DNA of 62,351 bases, from contig JAWXAT010000017.1 of NCBI GenBank assembly GCA_034439615.1, positions 1-62,351 on the forward strand, given 5' to 3'. The position numbers and the translations under genes are program-made. Positions 52,038 through 54,381 of this stretch are shown piece after piece (the first letter of the stretch is position 1; each line of letters starts with the position of its first letter). The DNA is from Oligoflexia bacterium. Its GTDB lineage: Bacteria; Bdellovibrionota; Bdellovibrionia; JABDDW01. Under the pieces are notes generated by a model. The model had not been told where the DNA came from and did not search any database. It saw only the letters and a program-made list of their open reading frames with translations.

Positions 52038-52817
52038 TTAGAAATTCAACGCGACGTTGGGCCCGCTGTTTTGTGGTGAATGACTTGAGTGACTTACGAT
52101 CCCTTCTTTATTTAAAGTGTAAATATTAAAAATATGTCGAATAACGGGCTGAGCGACGTTGCGCACAGGAATACCTCCAGGTGTTACTCCTTTTTCAATT
52201 CCTCTGTGTGCGTGTCCATGAAAAACAATATCTGCACCTGCGGCATCAATAGCTTCAGCAAAAAGGTAGCTTCCTAAAAAGGGGTAAATTTCTTTTTTCT
52301 CACCAGTAAGTGTTCCAGGAATGGGGGAGTAGTGCATCAGTACGATTTTATAATCTGTCTTCATTGCTAGAAGTGAATCGTGCAGGCCATGAGCCAGGAT
52401 TTTAGTATGATGTATGAACGCTTTCATTTCTTTTTCACCAAAGTCACTACCGCAAGCCCCCATAAATCCACCACCAAAACCTTTGAGGCCGACAATACCT
52501 ACGGCAGATTTTTGAACTTCAACGACACAGGTTTTATTTTCAAGAACATTCACATTCGCAGATTCAAGAATTTTACAAACCTCTGGAACTTGATCTGTGT
52601 GAAAATCATGGTTTCCTAAAACAGCAAATACAGGCACGGGTGAGTTATGAAGTTCTTTTGCAAGGATGTTTGCTTCTTCTGCATGACCCGTCTGAGTGAG
52701 ATCACCAGCAAGTAAGAGTAAATCAGCTTTTTGATTTAAATTTTCAAGGTGAGGTTTAAATTTGCCTTGAGAATTTCGATCAAAATGAATATCTCCTGCT
52801 GCGGCAATTCGTATCAT
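52038..52817 (-). CDS. calcineurin-like metallophosphoesterase
   Basis: 259 aa. Full metal-binding motif set: DIH (Asp9, His11), GDLT (Asp39), GNHD (68-71), a later LMHYSP and GHAHRG. Members hydrolyse phosphodiesters or phosphomonoesters. It starts in a 4-nt overlap (ATGA) with the nucleotidyltransferase-BON gene, so the two enzymes are co-translated and likely act on the same nucleotide or modification, one adding and one removing it, as hypothesis. Confidence 0.9.
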   Translation of the reverse strand: MIRIAAAGDIHFDRNSQGKFKPHLENLNQKADLLLLAGDLTQTGHAEEANILAKELHNSPVPVFAVLGNHDFHTDQVPEVCKILESANVNVLENKTCVVEVQKSAVGIVGLKGFGGGFMGACGSDFGEKEMKAFIHHTKILAHGLHDSLLAMKTDYKIVLMHYSPIPGTLTGEKKEIYPFLGSYLFAEAIDAAGADIVFHGHAHRGIEKGVTPGGIPVRNVAQPVIRHIFNIYTLNKEGIVSHSSHSPQNSGPNVALNF

Positions 52818-53782
52818 ACGACGGCCTCAGCCCCTTCTGGGCCAGGAAGCACAGGTACGGTGATTTGATTATCGACTTCACATGCTGGGACAATAGTTTT
52901 GATTACCTCAATAATGGCTAGTTTTTGTTCTTCACTGGCGCATTCTCCACGAACAAGAATGTGATTTTGTTCTGCGACAATTTTTATATTTTGATCACCG
53001 GTACGACTATCTTGGGCTAATGCATCTTTAATACGACCCACAACGTAAACATCATTTTCAACCCGCCTATGAAGTGAGAATCCACCAAGTGGGCTTGTCG
53101 ATTGTTGAAAAGACCCAACAGCATTTTGTGCATGAGCTTGATCATCTTCAAAAATAGATTTAAAAAGTGTTTGTATAATTCTATTGGGCACAAGAATGTC
53201 ATTAGATTGGCCATAAATCAGCAAAGCTAAAACTCTTCTCGGGGCACGTCGGGCGCGCTTTAATAAATATTCCCAATCGAGATGAGCATGAGACAAAACA
53301 GCTAGAGCATCATGCCAATGGTGTGGGCCAATTTCATTATGAACAGCTGACTTGATAATAATGAAATCTTCAGGTGCAACGACTTTAACTTGTCGGTCAT
53401 GAAAATTGATGGCTCTTGCACGTTTGTGCATTTCATCATCGAAGTACATATCTCCGGATGATTTAAAAATGATGTCGACTAGGATGTCTTCCTTCCAGCC
53501 TTTAAAAAGCCAATTGTAATCAGTTTTTTCTGTCAAAAAATGATTCTTAGCCAATGCGTCAATTGCAGCTTCAGCATCTTCTGGTCGGACAAAAATGTCT
53601 ATGTCATGTGTCGATCTGGGACGGCCTAGACCACTTGCTGCAACGCCACCAATAAGTGCGTAGGGTAGTTTTGCAGTTTCAAGGGCATCTAAGGCATCAA
53701 AAAGTGTACGATTAAATCGATCTCCATCTTCAGTGTGTCTAGCACTTACTTGATGAGAGGGATTATTTTTACCTGGCTCCAT
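52814..53782 (-). CDS. nucleotidyltransferase fused to a BON domain
   Basis: 322 aa. The N-terminal half is a polymerase-beta-like nucleotidyltransferase: ALIGGVAASGLGRPRSTHDIDIFV (GG 45-46, DID 60-62), a third acidic residue in EDILVDIIF (about Asp103) and helices of the AbiEii/MNT style. The C-terminal 80 residues fold as a BON domain (VYVVGRIKDALAQDS, IVAEQNHILVRGECAS, ACEVDNQITV), a module that usually binds phospholipid or other ligands. I do not know this fusion. A perfect AAGGAGGT precedes the ATG. The gene is the first of a two-gene operon with the phosphoesterase. Confidence 0.82.
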   Translation of the reverse strand: MEPGKNNPSHQVSARHTEDGDRFNRTLFDALDALETAKLPYALIGGVAASGLGRPRSTHDIDIFVRPEDAEAAIDALAKNHFLTEKTDYNWLFKGWKEDILVDIIFKSSGDMYFDDEMHKRARAINFHDRQVKVVAPEDFIIIKSAVHNEIGPHHWHDALAVLSHAHLDWEYLLKRARRAPRRVLALLIYGQSNDILVPNRIIQTLFKSIFEDDQAHAQNAVGSFQQSTSPLGGFSLHRRVENDVYVVGRIKDALAQDSRTGDQNIKIVAEQNHILVRGECASEEQKLAIIEVIKTIVPACEVDNQITVPVLPGPEGAEAVV

Positions 53783-53935
53783 TTGACCTCCTTAAATAAA
53801 GAACCATGCTTATTCAAGTTCTGCGCCAGAAAATTTATTACAAATTTTGAGCAACAATTATTCACATTGTTTTAACAGTCAGTACAGTGACTAGACTTTG
53901 GATAATCAAGTTCTGGTCTCTGTGCGTATAAATCA

Positions 53936-53944: not shown

Positions 53945-53963
53945 CTTTAAAGAGGTAACATTG

Positions 53964-54361
53964 ATGAGCGAAGAAGCTGTCATTCTTATTGTTGATGATG
54001 AAAAAGAATTACGTGAAAGTCTTGGAGAGTTATTAGCGCGTAAAGGCTTTGCCGTGCAATGTGTCCAAAGTGGTAACGAAGCACTTCAGGTTTTTCATGA
54101 ACGTAAAAAAAGTTTGGTCGGCCAGAAGTTAAATTAGTACTCAGTGATTGGATGATGAGTGATGGCGATGGCCTTGCGTTATTAGAGAAATTACGTGTTG
54201 GTGAGTTTCATTATGTTCCGTTTATTCTCATGTCAGGTGCAGTTACAAAAGAAGTGTTAAAAAATGTGGTACATCAAGGTGCAGATGGTGTGCTTTTAAA
54301 GCCATTTAGTGGTGACACGCTAATTAAAAAAATCTCAGAAGCAATTGCAAATCGTGAATAG
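53964..54361 (+). pseudogene. response-regulator receiver gene with a frameshift in A7
   Basis: The ATG at 53964 has AGAGGT upstream. The first frame reads an N-terminal receiver (VILIVDDEKELRESL) and stops at 54137 with nonsense after CGT-AAA-AAA. The frame shifted by one base continues at KKFGRPEVKLVLSDWMMSDGDG with the phospho-Asp, then LMSGA and LLKPFSGD to the stop at 54361. Together they form one normal receiver of about 131 residues. One extra A in the seven-A run at 54105-54111 restores it. The defect is a sequence error, true mutation or slippage site. Confidence 0.75.
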
Positions 54362-54381
54362 CAAGAGTTAGCGCGGGAACT

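Follow-up and report, generated by a model that had tools for sequence, protein, structure and literature searches.

What could a nucleotidyltransferase with a C-terminal BON domain accomplish together with the calcineurin-like phosphoesterase whose gene overlaps its own? This question is raised by a gene pair of an Oligoflexia bacterium, located in the window, the whole stretch of 62,351 nucleotides that was analysed. Both open reading frames were borne out with the coordinates, lengths and stop/start overlap given in a first-pass annotation made from the DNA letters (Table 1). The strong Shine-Dalgarno sequence, which had also been described, is real; high expression cannot be deduced from this one sequence, since it is not conserved in many orthologues and therefore does not characterise the system. 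Divergent from the NTase-BON gene lies an apparently broken response-regulator receiver frame (53963-54378, plus strand). The break is a one-base shift at an A run near 54105, which points to either gene decay or a mistake in the assembly.

Table 1. Features of the NTase-BON/phosphoesterase locus, in window positions
Feature	Position	Strand	Size or residues	Remark
NTase-BON fusion gene	52814..53782	-	322 aa	
Calcineurin-like (class III) phosphoesterase gene	52038..52817	-	259 aa	
ATGA stop/start overlap, NTase-BON/phosphoesterase	52814..52817	-	4 nt	
Shine-Dalgarno sequence AAGGAGGT of NTase-BON gene	53786..53793	-		strong here
Promoter-like element CTGGCGCAGAACTTGAATAA	53810..53829	-		5' of NTase-BON gene
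TTGGC[CGA][CT]-N5-TTGA[AT] element	53810-53829; also L043-L061, L079, L081			upstream of NTase
MNT-fold nucleotidyltransferase domain	53147..53716	-	about residues 23-212	Pfam, AlphaFold2, Foldseek
GG of NTase	53645-53650	-	45-46	invariant, 28 orthologues
D-x-D of NTase	53597-53605	-	D60, D62	invariant, 28 orthologues
Third Asp of NTase	53474-53476	-	D103	invariant, 28 orthologues
BON domain, alpha-beta-beta-alpha-beta	52859..53071	-	238-308	Pfam, AlphaFold2, Foldseek
KGFGGGF loop of phosphoesterase	52464-52484	-		GFGGGF part invariant, 28 Bdellovibrionota orthologues

The nucleotidyltransferase (NTase) domain had been labelled as AbiEii/MNT-like. Its MNT fold was confirmed, but the Pfam profile AbiEii is matched below the cut-off (E-value of 0.023, 15.1 bits versus 22.5). 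Scores above the cut-offs were obtained with NTP_transf_5 (8.6e-11, 42.3 bits versus 31.2) and DUF2204 (8.6e-10, 39 bits versus 20.3), and both profiles are matched by all 28 orthologues at E <= 0.01; judged by these profiles, the label should read 'MNT-fold, NTP_transf_5/DUF2204'. Aminoglyc_resit is matched with 22.3 bits (cut-off of 21) and by 20 of the 28 members. The catalytic GG, DID and third Asp were already thought to be intact, and indeed G45, G46, D60, D62 and D103 are unchanged in 28/28 orthologues. An AlphaFold2 model of NTase-BON (pLDDT 84.5) contains an MNT-type domain and a disordered linker (residues 216-239). A Foldseek search with this model revealed MenT1, LnuA, the putative TM1012 and ANT(2'') as the nearest solved folds, the closest being MenT1 (8an4, 8an5; E-value of 4.1e-07). 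MenT1, LnuA and ANT(2'') are nucleotide transferases. None of the PADLOC defence models matched the NTase, and no NCBIfam equivalog model reached its cut-off for either the NTase or the phosphoesterase.

The BON domain claimed for the C-terminus is genuine. Its Pfam score lies close to the threshold (3e-06, 27.9 bits versus a cut-off of 27.0, residues 247-309); however, the match is not due to chance, because the profile is matched by 23 of the 28 orthologues, the AlphaFold2 model adopts the BON order of secondary structure elements at high confidence and Foldseek matches this part of the fusion to OsmY, DolP and BonA. A signal peptide is not evident on NTase-BON. The fusion had been put forward as an unfamiliar combination, but a class of this kind has already been catalogued: Table 1 of the DolP paper from 2020 contains a cluster 10 with 'one BON and one DUF2204', comprising 80 proteins, 77 of which are actinobacterial (PMC7806268). 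As an architecture, the fusion was thus already on record; its likeness to cluster 10 was judged by domain content. The paper counts the class without discussing a function and appears to report neither an adjacent phosphoesterase gene nor regulation nor members from Bdellovibrionota (PMC7806268).

The second enzyme was correctly described as a complete calcineurin-like phosphoesterase. It matches the Pfam profile Metallophos with an E-value of 3.8e-17 (63.8 bits versus a cut-off of 21.5) and possesses the full di-metal site set D-x-H / GD / GNH[DE] / H / GHxH, and the class III motif residues D9, H11, D39, N69, H70, H162, H200 and GHxH are invariant in 28/28 orthologues. PADLOC PDC-S10 yielded a partial match only, to the core of the protein (6.4e-08). 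Foldseek analysis of the AlphaFold2 model (pLDDT 85.4) placed it near GpdQ, aq_1956, LpxH, Mre11 and MPPED2 and, further down, PptH. GpdQ, LpxH, Mre11 and PptH cleave phosphodiester or pyrophosphate bonds. As the class III enzymes include those acting on 2',3'-cyclic nucleotides, e.g., Sinorhizobium meliloti SpdA (PMC4222275), and MenT1 is the nearest solved fold of the NTase, the pair might modify and repair the 3' ends of tRNA or other RNA under stress: a MenT-like NTase would add nucleotides, and the phosphoesterase would process ends or cyclic phosphates. This is a rather unlikely explanation, given that the NTase family is about equally close to antibiotic adenylyltransferases and to MenT and that no ligase, kinase or Hen1 was noticed in the neighbourhoods read.

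A search for the fusion and its neighbour across genomes, which had been suggested at the outset, revealed a conserved linkage. Among 369 Bdellovibrionota assemblies, mostly metagenome bins, the NTase is present in 45 and the phosphoesterase in 43, all of which are among the 45. Both genes are adjacent in every genome whose region was read; the sole split case, G268, has a contig end inside the phosphoesterase gene. A 4-nt overlap, either ATGA or GTGA, is found in 28/28 orthologous junctions read. The protein distances of NTase and phosphoesterase correlate with r = 0.86, a value reached by 0 of 2000 permutations. The flanking genes vary between families, and beyond local synteny inside families, no third conserved gene was found beside the pair. 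The comparison shows co-inheritance and predicted translational coupling of NTase and phosphoesterase. Two relatives, G233 (L107) and G242 (L108), encode an NTase domain whose catalytic motifs are all present, but neither BON nor phosphoesterase. It follows that BON and phosphoesterase were lost as one part and that the NTase is tolerated without its partner. Two short NTase paralogues of the window's own genome (L105, L106) were rejected as additional copies of the system, as neither has an adjoining phosphoesterase gene. Two further observations were made at single loci or in single families. The NTase frame at L026 3562-4362 lacks the N-terminus and start, probably due to an assembly frameshift, and in family f26 (L066, L067, L069, L073, L075, L077, L078, L080), a divergent gene for a small protein with an apparent KGG-type stress-protein motif adjoins the NTase gene, a synteny limited to this family.

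Gene overlaps are typical of coupled expression, and together with the MenT1-like fold of the NTase, the overlap would fit a toxin-antitoxin pair with a toxic NTase whose mark is undone by the phosphoesterase. We consider this improbable. The first-pass annotation had argued that the locus lacks an AbiEi partner and is not a plain type IV pair, which agrees with our results: the NTase has a phosphoesterase as its conserved partner, the AbiEii profile stays below its cut-off, and a reading of the neighbouring genes turned up no recognisable AbiEi or MenA antitoxin, either next to the window pair or common to its relatives. Furthermore, the supposed toxin comes first in the gene order, the pair is broadly retained within genera and did not turn up in the viral and phage collections that were searched, and both proteins diverge in correlation. 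The intact NTase of G233 and G242 argues against an obligate toxin-antitoxin pair, as does the general-stress promoter at alphaproteobacterial loci described below.

Outside the Bdellovibrionota, the sampling consisted of plasmid-collection records; a contig pattern scan, which was built from three sequences and missed most Bdellovibrionota copies, has little bearing on the outside distribution. A tblastn search with the phosphoesterase yielded 131 plasmid records, with 39-53% identity among the matches listed, which include Sinorhizobium, Rhizobium, Sphingobium, Azospirillum, Skermanella, Streptomyces, Nonomuraea and other genera. An origin of the pair from phages or mobile elements was considered and rejected: viral contigs contained no relative of the NTase-BON query, phage records contained neither protein, and the plasmid matches listed are mostly on large alphaproteobacterial replicons, including rhizobial ones. 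In Streptomyces fungicidicus, the NTase gene is followed by a separate BON gene (87 aa) with its own ribosome-binding site, which the phosphoesterase gene overlaps by 4 nt. By its gene order, this split arrangement is the apparent 'Rosetta stone' of the Bdellovibrionota fusion and is new here. Nonomuraea has the BON gene immediately 5' of the phosphoesterase gene, and the NTase gene is located around 12 kb away. In Nonomuraea gerenzanensis (L082, L086), BON and phosphoesterase genes lie directly downstream of an apparent topoisomerase IB gene; in Sphingomonas melonis, topoisomerase IB is among the top EcfG-regulated genes (PMC6599016).

In the alphaproteobacterial loci (rhizobia, Sphingobium, Azospirillum, Skermanella), the NTase gene is immediately 5' of the phosphoesterase gene, and another C-terminus replaces BON. 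This BON-less pair is likewise new here. The NTase profiles of Bdellovibrionota and Alphaproteobacteria match with a probability of 99.1%, and the alphaproteobacterial phosphoesterases are 39-42% identical and keep the KGF-x-GGF loop. A phosphoesterase tree separates, with full support, the BON-linked enzymes of Bdellovibrionota and Actinobacteria from the BON-less ones of Alphaproteobacteria. Since BON is fused, split or absent around one conserved enzyme pair, it is best seen as an accessory of that unit. It is well supported that the predicted NTase-phosphoesterase unit occurs in three or more bacterial phyla. The two enzymes, paired here by sequence and linkage, could also be an ordinary gene pair held together by operon inertia, with unrelated housekeeping roles. 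This seems doubtful to us because the adjacency is kept across three phyla at approximately 40-60% protein divergence and with differing neighbours, and it persists whether the BON module is split off or fused.

The upstream regions provide a hint at regulation. GGAAC-N16/17-[CT]GTT is found near the NTase start in six of eight alphaproteobacterial loci, with TGTT in most sites, and corresponds to the EcfG general-stress consensus GGAAC-N16-CGTT (PMC3892343; PMC7083833), whose -10 box is flexible (PMC7083833). The chance rate of such a site, estimated from dinucleotide shuffles, is 0.05-0.55% per region. The six loci comprise five from Rhizobium/Sinorhizobium and one from Sphingobium and therefore amount to fewer than six independent cases; the Skermanella and Azospirillum loci have no EcfG site. 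The sites are located 36-55 nt upstream of the NTase start, except in S. meliloti (L092 6872-7774), where the EcfG-like site is 26 nt inside the annotated NTase frame, whose start is probably annotated too far upstream. The alphaproteobacterial pair is, as predicted from these motifs, behind a general-stress-response (EcfG) promoter in most loci examined. S. meliloti 1021 carries a BON-less pair on pSymB with 99.6% identity to the strain that gave the EcfG-type site.

No EcfG-type site was found at the Bdellovibrionota loci, and the region upstream of the window's NTase-BON gene matched no EcfG, sigma-54 or SigB-type site. Instead, 20 of 28 Bdellovibrionota orthologues possess TTGGC[CGA][CT]-N5-TTGA[AT] upstream of the NTase gene, compared with 0.4% per region in shuffled sequences. 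Its spacing is that of sigma-54 promoters; however, these have GC at -12, which the Bdellovibrionota element lacks, having TTGA in place of TTGC. As a genome-wide pattern, the element is rare in the two genomes that were scanned and does not outnumber its reversed control, and we therefore claim no regulon. The same element, TTGGCCTCAGGTTTGAA, was seen 5' of the gene for a conserved protein of 88-91 amino acids in G241 and G248 (f12; L095, L098), which may be another target of the same regulator. The Streptomyces operon is preceded by a single weak SigB-like match. The proposed assignment to stress rests on the alphaproteobacterial promoters, with several of the eight loci being close relatives, and Bdellovibrionota has another element.

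What the pair does can be narrowed down from these observations. We favour, though with less than even confidence, a chromosomal, stress-induced nucleotidylation/phosphodiesterase pair, whose write-erase chemistry is inferred. Under stress, the NTase would transfer a nucleoside monophosphate to a hydroxyl group of a substrate in the cytoplasm, be it a protein, a tRNA or a small molecule, yielding a phosphodiester. The phosphoesterase would cleave this bond, which would allow reversal or turnover of the mark. Through binding of a ligand or a membrane lipid, as in DolP and Kbp, BON would tether or gate the pair; its absence in Alphaproteobacteria means that BON is dispensable and not essential to the core chemistry. 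The fuller version, an undescribed stress system of at least three phyla, in which a BON-guided NTase reversibly nucleotidylates protein or RNA, the phosphoesterase removes the mark and the unit occurs fused, split or BON-less, is put forward somewhat more tentatively. The phosphoesterase plausibly acts on the product of the NTase itself, but linkage alone also fits two steps of one pathway. In such a biosynthetic or salvage route, the NTase would make a nucleotide-linked intermediate (sugar, lipid head group, pantetheine), which the phosphoesterase trims in the manner of LpxH or PptH. The fold neighbours of the phosphoesterase (LpxH, GpdQ, PptH) and the small-molecule modifiers LnuA and ANT(2'') near the NTase speak for this route, as does the location of some rhizobial copies near sugar and polysaccharide genes; however, the sugar neighbours are confined to Rhizobium, and no biosynthetic partner gene is conserved across phyla, which makes the route unlikely in our view. 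It heads the rivals that remain, followed by the RNA-end system and then the toxin-antitoxin pair.

Our literature search, with most subscription papers outside it, retrieved no account of the NTase-phosphoesterase pair or its function, and a look for published expression data on the rhizobial genes by presumed locus tags did not lead to these genes. If the nucleotidylation reading is true, a widespread writer-like and eraser-like module would constitute a new layer of the bacterial general stress response; to our knowledge, post-translational and RNA nucleotidylation has so far been described mainly for toxins and a few regulators. The pair also hints at what a BON domain in the cytoplasm might concretely do, and as far as we know, the ligands of BON domains are mostly unknown. 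The pair of S. meliloti 1021 makes the system directly testable in a tractable organism.

Among known systems, the MenT1/AbiEii-like type IV toxins provide the closest solved fold. Their GG and DxD motifs align with those of the NTase, the third Asp is present in both, and K144 and D158 of the NTase resemble later motifs of the toxin family. In contrast to these toxins, the NTase scores below the AbiEii cut-off, lacks an AbiEi/MenA partner, is fused to BON and coupled to a phosphoesterase, and is a chromosomal gene product retained within lineages. LnuA and ANT(2'') have the MNT fold and the catalytic acids in common with the NTase, in line with the Aminoglyc_resit matches; however, identity is only around 15-20%, and the NTase has a conserved operon partner and no resistance context. 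The phosphoesterase shares its fold and the D-x-H / GD / GNHD / H / GHxH set with GpdQ, CpdA, SpdA, LpxH and PptH, but forms a distinct subfamily with the KGF-x-GGF loop and a PFLG motif. The BON fold is common to NTase-BON and to OsmY, which is osmotically inducible, DolP, whose BON domain binds phospholipid, and Kbp, whose BON domain binds K+. These are envelope proteins, lipoproteins or BON-LysM proteins, whereas the BON domain described here accompanies two enzymes, either by fusion or as a gene encoded with theirs.
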